The position numbers and the translations under genes are program-made. Under the pieces are notes generated by a model, which ran no database searches, was not told the DNA's origin, and worked only from the letters and a program-made list of their open reading frames with translations. 64,000 bases of DNA from an uncultured Opitutia bacterium (GTDB taxonomy: Bacteria; Verrucomicrobiota; Verrucomicrobiia; Opitutales; UBA953): contig CAMFKE010000005.1 of the NCBI GenBank assembly GCA_945957395.1, forward strand, positions 126,001-190,000, read 5' to 3'. Positions 15,706 through 25,998 of the stretch are shown piece by piece; within the stretch, counting starts at the first letter, position 1, and each line of letters opens with the position of its first letter.

Positions 15706-17163
15706 TCAGGACTTCGACCCGCCGGCGGTGTTTGCGGAGCGGCCGCCGCGCTCGCCTCTCGGGCGCTTGGCGGCGGGGTCGTAGGCGGGGTTGGCGACGG
15801 AGGGGATCGCGGCGCCGGTGTCCTTTTGCCAGCGGTGCAGTTCGGCCAGCATGGCCTTGGCCCGGGCGGGCTCGCGCGCGGCAAGGTCGGTCGACTCGCC
15901 GGCGTCCTTGGCGAGGTTGTACAGCTCGGTGCGACGGTCCTCGAAGAACTCCATCAGCTTCCAGTCGCCGGACCGGATGGCGCTCGAGGGTTTGGAACTG
16001 CCGATATAACACGGGAAGTGCCAGAACATCGAACGCGCCGGCCAGGTCTTGCCGCGCAGCAGCGGCACCAGGCTGCGCCCGTCGAGCGTCGCCTTCGGCG
16101 TCGCCCCGGCGAGTTCGGCCAGCGTGGCGTGGAAGTCGATCGAGGCCACCGGCTCGCGGCATTCGCCGCCGGGCACGGTGACGCCGGGCGCCACCACGAA
16201 AAGCGGCACGCGGATGCCGCCCTCGTAGAGCTCGCCCTTGCCGCCGCGCATCGGCGCGCAGAAGGGCTTGGTGGCGCCGTTGTCGGAGGTGAACACGATG
16301 ACGGTGTCGCGCTCCAGCCCCTGCTCGCGCAGCGAGGCGGTGAGCCGCGCGATGTTGCGGTCCAGGTTTTCCACGGTCGCGGCGTAGGCGGGGTCGTTGG
16401 CCGGGTCCGCGGGCAGCGAGGCGGCCTTGGCCTTGTACTTCTTCAAAAGCTCCGCGGGCGGGTCGAAGGGCGCGTGGATGTCGTGATAGGGAAGATACAG
16501 GAAGAACGGCTTGTCGCCGCGCGACTTCATGAAGGCGATGCCCTCGTCGGTGAACACCTCGGCGAGCTGGCGCCCGGAGGCGTCCCGGTAGGCGTCCTTC
16601 TCAAAACCCACATCCTTCGGGTCCTTGAAAACCTCGAAACCCTGGCCGAGAGGCGTGCACGGGCCGGCCTTGTTCTTCCCGCCGCGCCCGAGGTTCCACA
16701 TGCCGAACATCGCCGTGGCGTACCCGCGGTCGCGCAGCGTCTCCGCCACGGTCACCTCCTCCGTCGGCATCTCCTCGCGACTCTCCGACGCGAGCAGCTT
16801 CTGCCAGGGCGAACCCGGTTTCTGGCGCGGGTCCGAAACCGTGTACACGCCGTGGCGCGGCGTGTACCGGCCGGTCATCAGGCAGGCCCGCGTGGGCGCG
16901 CAGTTCGGCGCCGCCGCGTAGGCCTGCGTGAACCGCATGCCGCGCCGCGCCATCTCGTCGATCGCGGGCGTCTCGATGAACTTGTTGCCCGTGAACCCGC
17001 AGTCGCGCCACCCCATGTCGTCGATGAGGATGAGGATGATGTTCGGCGGACGCGCCTGCCCGGGGACGGATGCCGGCGACCCGGGTGAGGCGGCGGGCTG
17101 CGCCGCGATAGCGGTGACCCCGGCGAGGCTCAGGGCGCAGAAAGTGGCGAGGCGTTTTCTCAT
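15706..17163 (-). CDS. Secreted sulfatase, formylglycine type (second of a pair)
   Basis: The 485-residue product begins with a signal peptide (MRKRLATFCALSLAGVTAIA), then PPNIILILIDDMGWRDCG with Asp48-Asp49 as metal ligands. The signature NCAPTRACLMTGRYTPRHG holds the modifiable Cys88. VIVFTSDNGATKPF and GDWKLMEFFEDRRTELYNL match sulfatase blocks. It differs clearly from the neighbouring sulfatase, so the pair may act on different linkages of one sulfated glycan. It too ends in a basic low-complexity tail (RPRGERGGRSANTAGGSKS). It is the first gene of the minus-strand run 17163-14156. Confidence 0.93.
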   Translation of the reverse strand: MRKRLATFCALSLAGVTAIAAQPAASPGSPASVPGQARPPNIILILIDDMGWRDCGFTGNKFIETPAIDEMARRGMRFTQAYAAAPNCAPTRACLMTGRYTPRHGVYTVSDPRQKPGSPWQKLLASESREEMPTEEVTVAETLRDRGYATAMFGMWNLGRGGKNKAGPCTPLGQGFEVFKDPKDVGFEKDAYRDASGRQLAEVFTDEGIAFMKSRGDKPFFLYLPYHDIHAPFDPPAELLKKYKAKAASLPADPANDPAYAATVENLDRNIARLTASLREQGLERDTVIVFTSDNGATKPFCAPMRGGKGELYEGGIRVPLFVVAPGVTVPGGECREPVASIDFHATLAELAGATPKATLDGRSLVPLLRGKTWPARSMFWHFPCYIGSSKPSSAIRSGDWKLMEFFEDRRTELYNLAKDAGESTDLAAREPARAKAMLAELHRWQKDTGAAIPSVANPAYDPAAKRPRGERGGRSANTAGGSKS

Positions 17164-17363
17164 GGCTTGGGATTCTCTCGTCGGTAGCCGCCCCCTGGGT
17201 CGGAAACAAACCACCGCCGAACCGTATTCCGTAAAACGCCGGCCCGAATCCACAGGCTCCTCAAAAAAACCTCACCCGCCCGATAAATACCCGCACCGGC
17301 GCCACAGCCGCCGGCGGCTTCGGGCGATTTGCCGGCGAGGGGATAGCGGACACCCTCATAAGC

Positions 17364-17936
17364 ATGAAAGCCCCGGCCCGATTCTCCCTGGCGGCGCTCC
17401 TGTTGACGGCCTCATGCGTGGCCGGGGCCAACGACGCCTACCCGCGCATCGACTCGGACCGGGAGGTGGTGCGCACGCTCCCCAAGGCCACGCTCATCGT
17501 GGGCGAGCTGCCCCCGGGCCTCGACTACTTCAACGCCGGGCTCGCCGAGTTCAGACCCTTGTTGAACTACCTGGACACGCACAACCTGCCGCGCAACAGC
17601 CCGGTGGAAGGCCGCCCTTACTGCGAGCGAACCCTGGCGCTGTACCTCGACGACGCCTCCGCCGCCAAGGCGCTGCCGGAGGCCAAGGGCATCCGCAAAG
17701 TCGTCCTGCCGGAGCGCACGGTGGCCGCACTGGCCTCGCGAGGCGGATACGACAAGGAAAAGCTGACGGGCATGACCAAGCGGCTGGAGACCTGGGTGGC
17801 CAAGCAGCCCGACCTGAAGGTCACCGGTCCGGCCTACTTCGTGTACTGGCACCCGGTCTATGTGCCTTCGTTTTACCGCAAGGCCGAGGTGCACATCCCC
17901 GTCGTGCGGGTGAAAACCGACAAGCCGGCGACCTAA
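17364..17936 (+). CDS. Exported GyrI/SOUL-like effector-binding-domain protein
   Basis: This 190-residue product has an N-terminal signal (MKAPARFSLAALLLTASCVAG); TASC may serve as a lipobox, making it a possible lipoprotein. The C-terminal stretch PAYFVYWHPVYVPSFYRKAEVHIPV has the pattern of GyrI-like/SOUL effector-binding domains, which bind small molecules or haem. KLTGMTKRLETWVAKQPDLKV matches the preceding helix in that fold. Its stop codon overlaps that of the convergent ribF gene. The family call is by pattern, so the molecular role remains open. Confidence 0.7.
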   Translation: MKAPARFSLAALLLTASCVAGANDAYPRIDSDREVVRTLPKATLIVGELPPGLDYFNAGLAEFRPLLNYLDTHNLPRNSPVEGRPYCERTLALYLDDASAAKALPEAKGIRKVVLPERTVAALASRGGYDKEKLTGMTKRLETWVAKQPDLKVTGPAYFVYWHPVYVPSFYRKAEVHIPVVRVKTDKPAT

Positions 17937-18877
17937 GCGCGGCCCGCCGCGGAGCAATCGGCCTCGATCTGCGCCTTCAGCGCGTCCAGCGAGGCGAACT
18001 TCATCTCAGGGCGGATGAAGCGGCGCAGGGAAACGCGCACGCGCGCCCCGTCACCGAGACCCGCCGCGGCCACCTCGGCGGCGCTCGCGAACAGGTGCAC
18101 CTCCAACTGCGGCGTCACCGGGGCGTTCTCCACGGTGGGTCGCACGCCGTAGTTGGCGACGCCCTCGCGCCACACGCCGTCGGGGCCGCGCAGGTGCACG
18201 GCGTACACGCCGTAGGCGGGACGCAGCTCGGGATTCCAAAAAACATTCAGCGTGGGGAAGCCGATGGTGCGCCCCAGCCGGCGGCCGGACACCACGGGGC
18301 CTTCGCCGTAGTACTCGTAGCCGAGCAGCGCGGCGGCATCGTCCACCCGGCCCTCCGCGACCAGCCCGCGGATGCGCGTGCTGGAAACGCGTTCGCCGTC
18401 GACCGCCACGCGGTTGGCCGCGAACACATGCACGCCGCAGGCCTTGCCCTGGCTGACCAGCAACGCCGCGTCGCCGGCGCGCTTGTGACCGAAGCGGAAA
18501 TTCTCCCCCACATACACGGCGGCCAGCCCGGGCGCGCGCTCGCGCAGCCACGGCAGGAACGCCTCCGCCGGCATGGCGGCGAACTCGCGGTCGAACCGGT
18601 GGTGCACCGCGAAATCCAGGCCGGCGCCGGCGAGCAGCTCGTCCTTCTGCGCCGCGTCCACGAGCAGCAAGGTCGGGTTTTCCGGACGGAACACGCGGCT
18701 GGGGTGCGGCTCGAAGGTCAGCACGCCCGCCACGCCGCCGGACGCCTTCGCGTTGCGAACGGCCAGCCCGAGCACCTCGCGGTGCCCCAGGTGCACGCCG
18801 TCGAACATGCCCACGGCCAGATGCACCGGCCCGGAAAAGGCGGGCAGGCGGTCGAAGGTGGTGACGGAGCTGAACAT
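17933..18877 (-). CDS. ribF: Bifunctional riboflavin kinase / FAD synthetase
   Basis: The 314-residue protein carries the FAD synthetase N-terminal domain (VGMFDGVHLGHREVL, nucleotidyltransferase HxGH-type motif; SSTRIRGLVAEGRV) and the riboflavin kinase C-terminal domain (GRTIGFPTLN and AYGVYAVHL). It converts riboflavin to FMN and FAD. It is transcribed toward the 17364 gene; the two stop codons overlap (CTAA at 17933-17936). No FMN riboswitch is visible upstream. Length is usual for the family. Confidence 0.95.
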   Translation of the reverse strand: MFSSVTTFDRLPAFSGPVHLAVGMFDGVHLGHREVLGLAVRNAKASGGVAGVLTFEPHPSRVFRPENPTLLLVDAAQKDELLAGAGLDFAVHHRFDREFAAMPAEAFLPWLRERAPGLAAVYVGENFRFGHKRAGDAALLVSQGKACGVHVFAANRVAVDGERVSSTRIRGLVAEGRVDDAAALLGYEYYGEGPVVSGRRLGRTIGFPTLNVFWNPELRPAYGVYAVHLRGPDGVWREGVANYGVRPTVENAPVTPQLEVHLFASAAEVAAAGLGDGARVRVSLRRFIRPEMKFASLDALKAQIEADCSAAGRA

Positions 18878-19035
18878 CGCCGCTTTTCAGTCTCCGCTTT
18901 TCGTCGCTCAGCAACGGAAATCGCCGTGGGAGCGCCGCCTCGCCGCCCGGCCCGGCGCGTCGAACACCGACACGCACCCGCGCCGCTAAAAAGACCGAAG
19001 TCGGCTTGAGCGCGGCAAGGGCGCCGCGCCGTCGA

Positions 19036-19075
19036 TAAAAAAGCAACCCCGCGCCGGAAGACTCCGGGCGGGGTT
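19036..19075 (-). terminator. Rho-independent terminator of the P-type ATPase gene
   Basis: An imperfect hairpin pairs AACCCCGCGCCGG (19045-19057) with CCGGGCGGGGTT (19064-19075), one base bulged. On the minus strand it is followed by a run of six T (19037-19042). It lies 35 bases after the ATPase stop codon. Confidence 0.8.
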
Positions 19076-19109
19076 GTTGTTTTCCCTAAGGAAAGCCGGC
19101 GGAGCGGCG

Positions 19110-21392
19110 TCAGGCGCGTCCGCCCTTGCCGAGGAGGAGGCGCAGGGAGTTGAGGCACACCAGCATGGTCGAGCCCTCGTGCGCGAACACACCGAAGGCG
19201 AGCGGGATGCCGTGCGGCGCGAACAGGCTCACGAGCATCATCACCAGGAGCGTGCCCAGCGAGATCACGAGGTTCTGCCGAATCACCGCACGCGCGCGCT
19301 CGGACAGCCGGCGCGCGTCGAGGAAGAGCTCGATGCGGTCGTCCATGAGCACCAGGTCGGATTGCTCCAGGGCGGCGTCGGAGCCGCGCGCGCCCATGGC
19401 TACGGCGATGTCGGCGGAGGCCAGCGCGGGCGCGTCGTTCACGCCGTCGCCGACCATGGCGACCTTGTGTCCGGAGCGGGAAAGGGCGCGCACATACTCG
19501 ACCTTGCCCTCGGGCTTCAGTCCGGCCTGCACCTCGGCCAGACCGAGCTTTTTGCCCACCTCGGCGGCGGCCTCGCGACGGTCGCCGGTGAGCATGACGG
19601 TGCGCACCTTCATGGCGGCGAGCGCGTCCATCACGGGCTTCGATTCGCGGCGGATCTCGTCACGCAGCAGGAGGCGACCGATGACGCCCTCGGCGACCAC
19701 CCACACCTCGGCGTGGTCGGCGGACGGCTCGGGCAGTTTCTCCGCCCACTCGCCCAGCGGGCCGGTGGCGAGCAGCTCGCGACGGCCGAGGGCGCAGGAG
19801 AGCCCCTCCACCGCGCCGCGCACGCCCATGCCGGTCATCGAGCGAAAATCGCTCACCGCGGCGGGCGCGACGCCGTTGCGCTTGCCGTGCGCGACGATGG
19901 CGCGGGCGAGCGGGTGCGTGGAGTGCGCCTCCAGCGCGACGGCCAGCCGGAGGATGTCGGCCTCGCGGCCGGCGGGGAAGCTCTCCACGCGCTCCACGGC
20001 GAGTTCGCCGGTCGTGAGCGTGCCGGTCTTGTCCAGGCAAACGCAGTCGATCTCGGCCAGCTTCTCGATGGCCGCGCCGCCGCGGAAGAGGATGCCGCGA
20101 CGCGCACCCCACGCGATGGCCGCGAGGATGGCGGACGGAATGGAAAGCACCAGCGCGCACGGGCTGGAGACGACCAGCAGCGTCATGGCGCGGTAGAAGG
20201 CGGACTTTTCGCCGGCGGGGGCGTTGAACGCCGGCATGCCGGAGACGAGCCACCAGAAGAGGAAGGCCGCGATGGTCAGGCCGATGATGCCCAGCGAGTA
20301 GGCGGTGCCGAACTTGTCGGTGAAGCGCTGCGAGGGCGCCTTGCGCATCTGCGCGTCGCGGATGAGGCGGATGATCTTCTGCAGCGAGCTTTCCGAAGCG
20401 AGCTTCGTGACGCGCACGCGCACGGCGCCCCACAGGTTCATCGTGCCGCCGAACACGCCGTCGCCGGCGGCCTTCGGCACCGGGCGCGCCTCGCCGGTGA
20501 GCGTGGATTCGTCGGCGGCGGATTCGCCCTCGATCACCTCGCCGTCCAGAGGGAATGCGTCGCCGGGTTTCACCGCCACGCGGTCGCCGACCTTGACGGA
20601 CTCCACGGGAGTCTCGGTCTCGGCGCCGTCGACGCCGATGACGCAGGCGGTCTTGGGCGCGGCCTTGAAGAGGGAGTCGATCTCCTTCTTCGTGCGGTGC
20701 ATGGCGAAATGCTCCAGCGCCCCGGCGCCGGAGAAAAGGAACAGGAGCATCGCGCCCTCGCCCCACTGGCCGATGGCGCACGCACCGGCGGCGACCACAA
20801 GCATGAGGAAGTGCACGTCGAAGCGGCCCTTCGGCAGGTTCTCCACGGAATCCATGAACGCGTCCCAGCCGCCCGCGATCACCGCGAGCGCATAGCAGAC
20901 GACGGACACCATCGGCCGCTCGGGCAGGAAGTGGGCGGTCGCCAGACCGGCGACGCCGAACACCGCGCAGGCCCCGGCGAATCCGGCGAGCACGCGCCAG
21001 TCCTCTTCCTCCTCCTCATGCCCGTGCGCCTCGGCCTCCTCGGCGCCGGGCCAGGGGATTTCGCGCCAGCGCCACAGGCGGTGCGCGGTGTCGCACGACG
21101 GCTTCTCCACCACGAGACGCCCTTCGTGACGGGCGAAACGCAGGCCGGCCAGCACGCCCTCCGGCGCCGCCGTCAGGTCGACGATCTCGCCGATGGCGCG
21201 CAGCGTGGCGGCCAGTTCGGCGCGCAGGACCGCGTCGTCGACGGGGCCCAGCGTGGCGGCCTCGATGCGCCTGCCGGCGGGGTCGATGCTCACCGCCTCG
21301 ATCCCTTCGGCGCGGCGCAGGGCGGCGGCGAGTTCGGCCGCCCAGGCGGGCGGCGGCATGGCGGGGGATTTGACCGAGTCTGAACTACTCAT
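19110..21392 (-). CDS. Heavy-metal P-type ATPase of the P1B-4 (SPC / HEGST) kind
   Basis: The 760-residue protein has the P-type ATPase motifs STLTGEA (actuator), DKTGTLT (454-460, phosphorylated Asp454) and GDGVNDAPALA (hinge). The membrane metal site has SSPCALVLS (SPC at 410-412) and, in the last membrane segment, AHEGSTMLV (HEGST at 738-742). SPC with HEG(G/S)T defines P1B-4 pumps, which in studied cases export Co, Fe, Zn or Cd. No CxxC metal-binding domain is present; instead HGHEEEEE lies at 123-130 before the first membrane helix. It stands alone with its own terminator. No metal regulator gene is next to it. The exact metal is not determinable here. Confidence 0.92.
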   Translation of the reverse strand: MSSSDSVKSPAMPPPAWAAELAAALRRAEGIEAVSIDPAGRRIEAATLGPVDDAVLRAELAATLRAIGEIVDLTAAPEGVLAGLRFARHEGRLVVEKPSCDTAHRLWRWREIPWPGAEEAEAHGHEEEEEDWRVLAGFAGACAVFGVAGLATAHFLPERPMVSVVCYALAVIAGGWDAFMDSVENLPKGRFDVHFLMLVVAAGACAIGQWGEGAMLLFLFSGAGALEHFAMHRTKKEIDSLFKAAPKTACVIGVDGAETETPVESVKVGDRVAVKPGDAFPLDGEVIEGESAADESTLTGEARPVPKAAGDGVFGGTMNLWGAVRVRVTKLASESSLQKIIRLIRDAQMRKAPSQRFTDKFGTAYSLGIIGLTIAAFLFWWLVSGMPAFNAPAGEKSAFYRAMTLLVVSSPCALVLSIPSAILAAIAWGARRGILFRGGAAIEKLAEIDCVCLDKTGTLTTGELAVERVESFPAGREADILRLAVALEAHSTHPLARAIVAHGKRNGVAPAAVSDFRSMTGMGVRGAVEGLSCALGRRELLATGPLGEWAEKLPEPSADHAEVWVVAEGVIGRLLLRDEIRRESKPVMDALAAMKVRTVMLTGDRREAAAEVGKKLGLAEVQAGLKPEGKVEYVRALSRSGHKVAMVGDGVNDAPALASADIAVAMGARGSDAALEQSDLVLMDDRIELFLDARRLSERARAVIRQNLVISLGTLLVMMLVSLFAPHGIPLAFGVFAHEGSTMLVCLNSLRLLLGKGGRA

Positions 21393-21561
21393 CCGGCGGC
21401 AGAATGCAAAATGGCCGGCAAGGTCAACCCGTCACCCTCCGGGACAATTTTCACCCCGTATCCGAAAAAATCCGACGATTGTGAACATTTCTGTCTTTAC
21501 TTTGTCGATACGGGTGCCAGACATATTGATTAAGGGGCTCCGGAAACGACCCCAACACCCC

Positions 21562-22017
21562 ATGAGCAAAACCGATTCCTCCTTCGAACGCCTGCTTACC
21601 GTCTCCATCCCCGAGACCAAGCACGGAGAACTTATCCAATACGCGAAGCGCCACGGCTTCGCCAACTTCAGCGCCCTGGTCCGCTACGCGCTGGAAAGCT
21701 TCGACGCCAGGAAAGGCCTGAGCGCCCCCGAAGCGGCCCGCCAGGTCTCGTTCCGCATCCCGGACGACCTTCGCGGCTCCATCGACAAGCAGGCCAAGAA
21801 AACCGGCGTCAGCCTCGGACACCTCATCCGGACCGCGCTGGAATCCCTGCCCGAAAAACCCGCCGTGACCGCCAAGGCGGCCGGCAAGCCCCGCGCGGCG
21901 AAACCCGCCGCCAAGGCCCCCGCCAAGAAGGCGAAGCCGGCCCCCAAGAAGGCCGCGCCCGCCAAGAAGGCGGCGAGCAAGAAGGCGACAAAACCGGCCA
22001 AAAAAGGCCGTAAGTAA
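21562..22017 (+). CDS. Tandem ribbon-helix-helix protein with histone-H1-like Lys/Ala/Pro tail
   Basis: The 151-residue product starts at ATG 21562 ([12 protein letters not shown]). Two similar units follow: residues about 11-48 ([20 protein letters not shown]...[11 protein letters not shown]) and 61-97 ([20 protein letters not shown]...[11 protein letters not shown]). Each has the strand-helix-helix pattern of ribbon-helix-helix DNA-binding domains, which normally pair as dimers; here two are in one chain. Residues 98-151 are almost only Lys, Ala and Pro, like eukaryotic histone H1 tails and bacterial HC1/AlgP-like proteins. It is probably a DNA-binding nucleoid protein. The next gene, 60 bases on, encodes a protein made only of such a tail. 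The fold call is by pattern. Confidence 0.75.
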
Positions 22018-22076: not shown

Positions 22077-22445
22077 ATGACCGTCACCAAGAAGCCCGCC
22101 GCCAAGAAACCCGCCGCCAAGAAGGCCGCTCCCGCGAAGAAGGCCGTCGCCAAGAAGGCCGCCCCCGCGAAGAAGGCCGTCGCCAAGAAGGCTCCCGCGA
22201 AGAAGGCCGTCGCCAAGAAGGCCCCCGCGAAGAAGGCCGTCGCCAAGAAGGCCCCCGTGAAGAAGGCCGCCGCCAAGAAGGCCCCCGCGAAGAAGGCCGT
22301 CGCCAAGAAGGCCCCCGCGAAGAAGGCCGCCGCCAAGAAGGCCCCCGTGAAGAAGGCCGCCGCCAAGAAGGCTCCCGCGAAGAAGGTCGCCGCCAAGAAG
22401 GTGGCCGCCCCCGCGCCCGCCGCTCCCGCCGCCCCCCAGGCCTAA
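22077..22445 (+). CDS. Lys/Ala/Pro-repeat histone-H1-like protein
   Basis: The 122-residue product consists of repeats of [15 protein letters not shown]-type units, ending in [14 protein letters not shown]. At DNA level a roughly 30-base unit (core GCGAAGAAGGCC, GTCGCCAAGAAG) recurs some eight times, so the length can change by slippage. Such proteins bind DNA without sequence preference and resemble chlamydial/verrucomicrobial Hc-type and AlgP-like proteins. It starts with [11 protein letters not shown] and follows the tandem RHH gene in the same direction, so the two may be co-expressed. No folded domain is present. Confidence 0.75.
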
Positions 22446-22596
22446 GCGCCCAGGGCTTCCGTGACCGTATCCGGATTCCCACCTCGGGAATCCGGATGCG
22501 GGAGGACTTTCCCCAAAAGATTCGGCCGCCGCGCGCAACATAGCCCCGGCGGCTTTCGCATTTCCAGGCACCGCCCTGCGCCGCCGAGCGCACCGC

Positions 22597-22659: not shown

Positions 22660-25998
<3,339 letters not shown>

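Follow-up and report, generated by a model that had tools for sequence, protein, structure and literature searches.

According to the accessible portions of the respective papers, TraY of the F plasmid is a monomer in which one polypeptide adopts the ribbon-helix-helix (RHH) dimer fold (PMC12117103), and VirC2 of Agrobacterium and MJ0366 carry a duplicated RHH in a single, trefoil-knotted chain (PMC2848546); these portions describe no histone-H1-like tail for any of the three. CdbA of Myxococcus xanthus, which has one RHH unit per chain and binds c-di-GMP, has been proposed to be a nucleoid-associated protein that binds globally with moderate sequence specificity (PMC7156744). In mycobacterial HupB/Hlp and in Streptomyces HupS, a folded DNA-binding head precedes a long tail of lysine repeats (PMC11229371); the head is HU rather than RHH, and no nested start is described, as far as the available part of the source extends. 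Finally, lysine-rich pentamers account for length variation in chlamydial Hc2 (PMC2848022).

The gene analysed here, located in a 64,000-nucleotide stretch of DNA from an uncultured Opitutia bacterium (hereafter, the window), encodes a protein with the same head-then-basic-tail design as HupB and HupS, built instead on a predicted RHH head (Table 1). The initial annotation held that such a design was not known from a characterised family. This stands for the combination, which we did not find in the literature searched, but not for its components, as single-chain RHH proteins were already known (F TraY, VirC2 and MJ0366), and so were DNA-binding heads with a basic tail (HupB and HupS). Searches of the open-access literature returned no paper on an RHH protein under names beginning with Opitut and none on an H1-like/RHH fusion. 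Thus, although the parts are known, three things appear to be undescribed: the union of an RHH head with an H1-like tail, the conservation of this union throughout the order, and the putative nested start considered below. The initial annotation did not touch on the spread of the gene through the order, on the differing lengths of the tail, on the junction start codon of relatives or on the separate HC2-like gene that follows in the window.

Table 1. Features of the RHH gene and of the region downstream of it (positions in the window)
Feature	Position	Strand	Basis
Tandem RHH head and lysine-rich tail, whole gene	21562..22017	+	Translation of 151 aa; orthologs
Predicted RHH unit 1, residues 8-48: strand LTVS, helices 18-31 and 36-46	21583..21705	+	AlphaFold2 model; match between unit 1 and unit 2 profiles
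Predicted RHH unit 2, residues 58-97: strand RQVSFR, helices 68-81 and 85-94	21733..21852	+	Pfam RHH_1, 27 bits; invariant Q61, S63 and R65; model
Histone-H1-like tail, residues 98-151, with no internal ATG here	21853..22014	+	Composition, 83% K/A/P
Separate HC2-like (histone H1-like) ORF, 122 aa	22077..22445	+	Pfam HC2, 56.7 bits (cut-off 40)
Inverted repeat TCCGGATTCCC/GGGAATCCGGA after the HC2-like ORF	22470..22496	+	Read from the sequence; no T run

Predicted fold and DNA-reading residues of the head

The start codon at 21562 is supported by the relatives, which start at about the same position, and by the fact that a longer ORF, from 21193, would overlap the divergent ATPase gene. The initial annotation had suggested that two RHH-like units lie in one chain, and several lines of evidence agree with it. 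Unit 2 (residues 62-95) matches Pfam RHH_1 above the cut-off of 20.5 bits. Unit 1 alone gave no confident match in Pfam, and a family profile over this unit searched against the PDB weakly matched the RHH antitoxin MazE9 (E 0.013). The profiles of the two units match each other (hhalign probability of 94%, E 1.5e-7), which makes duplication the most likely origin of the head. Furthermore, structure prediction yielded the expected tandem fold, with beta-alpha-alpha occurring twice (strands at residues 12-15 and 61-64, each followed by the two helices listed in Table 1). The AlphaFold2 model, built from 20 sequences, has a mean pLDDT of 78.6 and a pTM of 0.40; the local pLDDT is good, whereas, given this pTM, the packing of the two RHH units is no more than moderately sure.

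When the model was compared with known structures using Foldseek and VIA-align, the top match was F-plasmid TraY (Z 9.8, rmsd 2.5 over 90 residues, 11% identity), a plasmid relaxosome protein from a different genetic setting that likewise holds both RHH units in one chain. Engineered single-chain Arc ranked next (Z 7.6), and MJ0366, with its duplicated RHH, matched at Z 5.2. Ordinary RHH proteins cover half of the model; CopG is among the structural matches, and CdbA chains match either half. Since VIA-align re-examines the Foldseek matches alone, nothing follows from VirC2 not being listed. The model, the Pfam match of unit 2 and the matches to TraY, Arc and CopG together place the predicted head in the RHH (MetJ/Arc) superfamily and, more specifically, in the TraY type, in which both units would form one dimer-like fold within a single chain. 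Such a head may act as a monomer.

Ten residues are invariant across families: T13, S37, R41, A43, Q61, S63, R65, S84, G86 and R90. Three of these (Q61, S63 and R65) occupy alternating positions in strand 2. In Arc, Gln9, Asn11 and Arg13, also alternating in the strand, contact DNA, and we take the two sets to be in register, judging from the motifs QxSxRxP and QxNxRxP. Strand 1 carries T13 and S15, position 15 being Asp in many families. The two strands thus present different residues, and the predicted DNA site is therefore probably asymmetric, with unlike halves. The constancy of the residues on the reading strands across the order suggests that the site, too, would be conserved over the order. 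The head probably functions as a DNA-binding module. In genera g2 and g5, the heads have accumulated many synonymous and few amino-acid changes. This pattern, like the spread of the tandem head through the order and the basic tail on most of the orthologs read out, goes beyond what chance would give.

The basic tail

With 18 Lys, 19 Ala and 8 Pro among its 54 residues, the tail consists almost entirely of these three amino acids, as had been noted initially. It has the make-up of H1-like and HC2 proteins, that is, a low-complexity basic chain rich in Lys, Ala and Pro; the Pfam HC2 model gave no match to the window protein itself (P0001). The fusion recurs in related genomes: most of the orthologs read out have a basic tail. 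Across orthologs, tail length ranges from 4 to 254 residues and the composition is nearly always basic, so that a tail is the rule and a fixed length is not. In part of family f14, tails are short (4-9 residues), and a long tail is therefore dispensable in some members. The tail may condense DNA.

Both the Lys/Ala/Pro repeat make-up, evident above all in the ORF downstream of the gene (Table 1), and the variable length recall Hc2. However, low-complexity likeness of this kind is weak evidence of common descent, and Hc2, to our knowledge, has no RHH head.

Distribution and gene neighbourhood

A profile of the head detected an ortholog in 215 of the 373 Opitutales genomes, belonging to 61 of the 100 genera, nearly always as one copy per genome, which bears out the expectation that residues 1-97 would be conserved. 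A sample of 338 genomes from the phylum gave 42 matches, all within Opitutales and none in the sampled genomes outside this order. The names of matching records refer to Opitutae, Opitutales, Puniceicoccales or Verrucomicrobia, the few exceptions looking like misnamed bins, and it is from these names that the order is taken to be Opitutales. The plasmid and phage records searched contained no match.

In the window's family, the gene is flanked by a divergent heavy-metal P-type ATPase gene on one side and an isocitrate dehydrogenase gene on the other; further downstream come a gene judged by eye to be porin-like and then rpsI. Other families, judged by eye, have a SecG-like gene upstream and an aminotransferase-like gene downstream. 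The retained gene order indicates that the gene is old, chromosomal and vertically inherited rather than mobile. These observations point to an uncharacterised chromosomal family of predicted DNA-binding proteins across a whole order of Verrucomicrobiota.

A putative nested start at the junction of head and tail

Among 76 distinct tail-bearing orthologs, 63 have an in-frame Met near the front of the tail, nearly always where the basic part begins; elsewhere in the tails, Met accounts for 1 in 6109 residues. The junction contexts include MAKKK, MPKKK, MADTKK and MPAKK, with Met usually followed by Ala or Pro. The count of 63 takes in genus g3 (GMPEQKK, GMPTPKK) and family f8 (RMAAGSL), whose junction Met we rejected as a nested start because start-site features are absent. 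Without them, the junction ATG is found in 12 genera of 7 families, between which the linkers are dissimilar.

Several properties of the surrounding sequence resemble those of a start site. AAGGA or GAGGA stands a few bases upstream of the junction ATG in many orthologs from the window's family, although a Shine-Dalgarno sequence is rare at the neighbouring gene starts examined. Among 43 sequences of genera g2 and g5, synonymous divergence reaches its minimum in the linker (0.051 over 11 codons) and is at least 0.148 in each of 73 windows outside it. The mean predicted RNA folding energy is -4.1 kcal/mol around the junction ATG versus -11.5 kcal/mol over the head coding region, and A and C make up 72% (versus 53%) of the 24 bases upstream of this ATG. 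A control in which the sequences were recoded synonymously attributes most of this weak structure to the encoded amino acids; the excess that remains has a mean z of +0.73 for linkers with the ATG (42 non-independent sequences) and of 0.01 for those without it (13 sequences). A conserved internal start codon and an accessible initiation region are thus found in relatives, with no more than moderate support after the recoding control. Given these hallmarks, many relatives probably produce the tail by itself as well, and we consider it likely that the nested start is real where the junction ATG is present.

Tails without a usable nested start occur in genera g83, g68, g92 and g86 and in those of families f6 and f8, and the nested product of genus g2 would measure about 16-22 aa. 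The absence of the ATG from several genera, as well as the free H1-like ORF adjoining the gene in the window, would suit the main rival to a nested start, namely, that the junction ATG is a relic of a separate H1-like gene which was fused in frame, the fusion protein being the sole product today. A relic of this kind, however, is less easily reconciled with the retention of the ATG in 12 genera of 7 families despite the lost similarity of their linkers, with the constraint on synonymous sites in g2 and g5, which is stronger in the linker than anywhere else in the gene, and with the weak RNA structure retained at the ATG. We therefore regard this explanation as doubtful.

A separate HC2-like ORF in the window

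The window's own gene lacks the junction ATG. The ATG of the HC2-like ORF lies 59 bases past the stop of the RHH gene, and such a neighbour was found at only one of 88 distinct loci, that of the window. This ORF is likely the counterpart of the nested product of the relatives, and the arrangement is most simply read as giving the second product a gene of its own in the window's genome, a split seen once. The inverted repeat after the ORF may mark the end of the transcription unit.

As a point against this reading, the leader of the HC2-like ORF and the linkers of relatives are only weakly alike: only some pairs score above shuffled sequences (p 0.014-0.51), and we claim no similarity from them. 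An HC2 search of genome G000 gave one further weak match, at G000:C1:375656 (E 1e-6), which is interrupted by a stop codon.

Proposed role

The reading that we prefer, with a probability of roughly 55%, is that of a nucleoid-associated or architectural factor made of a TraY-like head and a basic tail, with a nested start freeing the tail in relatives and the two products split in the window. One chain would form a complete RHH DNA-reading sheet, as in TraY, and this sheet would read a short, probably asymmetric site, while the disordered Lys/Ala/Pro tail would add non-specific affinity for DNA and condense or bridge DNA nearby. In Opitutales the protein would most likely shape the nucleoid, as an associated or architectural factor, and it might regulate genes globally too; a nucleoid-associated or architectural role is favoured because the design is that of HupB and HupS and because CdbA provides a precedent for an RHH protein of the nucleoid.

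In many relatives, initiation at the junction would most likely yield a free H1-like protein, the tail, from the mRNA that also encodes the full-length protein. The window's genome appears to have relocated this second product to the ORF at 22077-22445. We give even odds to the specific proposal of a second gene nested in the same frame, yielding a full-length site reader plus a free tail, and split into adjacent ORFs in the window. If this is true, one mRNA would determine how much condensing protein is site-bound relative to how much is free, and the split ORFs would be a natural and directly testable case of the two-product idea. A nested start, if real, would also let a single gene supply, in a compact way, both a site-specific protein and one that condenses DNA generally. 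Mechanical annotation would give a CopG-like protein alone and overlook the second product.

The main rival for the function of the head is local transcriptional repression, acting on the promoter of the divergent P-type ATPase gene or on the gene's own promoter, with the tail merely raising affinity. The adjoining heavy-metal ATPase gene in the window's family makes this conceivable, as do GTATCC/GGATAC elements upstream, which are found in many genomes of the family (at 21458 in the window and, relative to the gene start, at -116 in L021 and -121 in L002); the L021 element is a perfect inverted repeat, GTATCCATAAAATGGATAC. These elements are possible candidate operators of the RHH gene or of the ATPase gene. 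However, the neighbours differ in other families while the reading residues remain unchanged, the alignments contain no conserved Cys/His metal site, and in the search for upstream operators poly-A words dominated and gapped palindromes were no more numerous than in shuffled sequences. Local repression thus seems unlikely, somewhat more so than the relic origin of the junction ATG. That the protein is the antitoxin of a type II toxin-antitoxin system, with a basic tail, is highly improbable: the matches to CopG, BrnA and RelB antitoxin models are weak and score below the curated family cut-offs, the gene is single-copy and chromosomal with old synteny, and it is surrounded by conserved genes of metabolism and of the ribosome, none of the loci inspected showing a toxin-like partner.

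Other observations at the locus

Orthologs of genus g3 (L132, L133 and L022-L026) have strongly diverged heads and no convincing nested start, and in L132 and L133 the upstream neighbour is a different gene, FtsY-like by eye. Within the window, many long ORFs, including 16928-19009 and 19074-21383 on the forward strand, resemble antisense shadows of real genes; the latter runs opposite the ATPase gene, the genome is GC-rich, and such shadow ORFs are probably not genes. The isocitrate dehydrogenase gene downstream of the RHH gene, on the opposite strand (22660-25674), encodes the monomeric NADP enzyme (TIGR00178), and relatives carry the other NADP-dependent type (PRK07006) at the same locus (L062:5550-6605); the enzyme appears to have been swapped in place for one of a different type.
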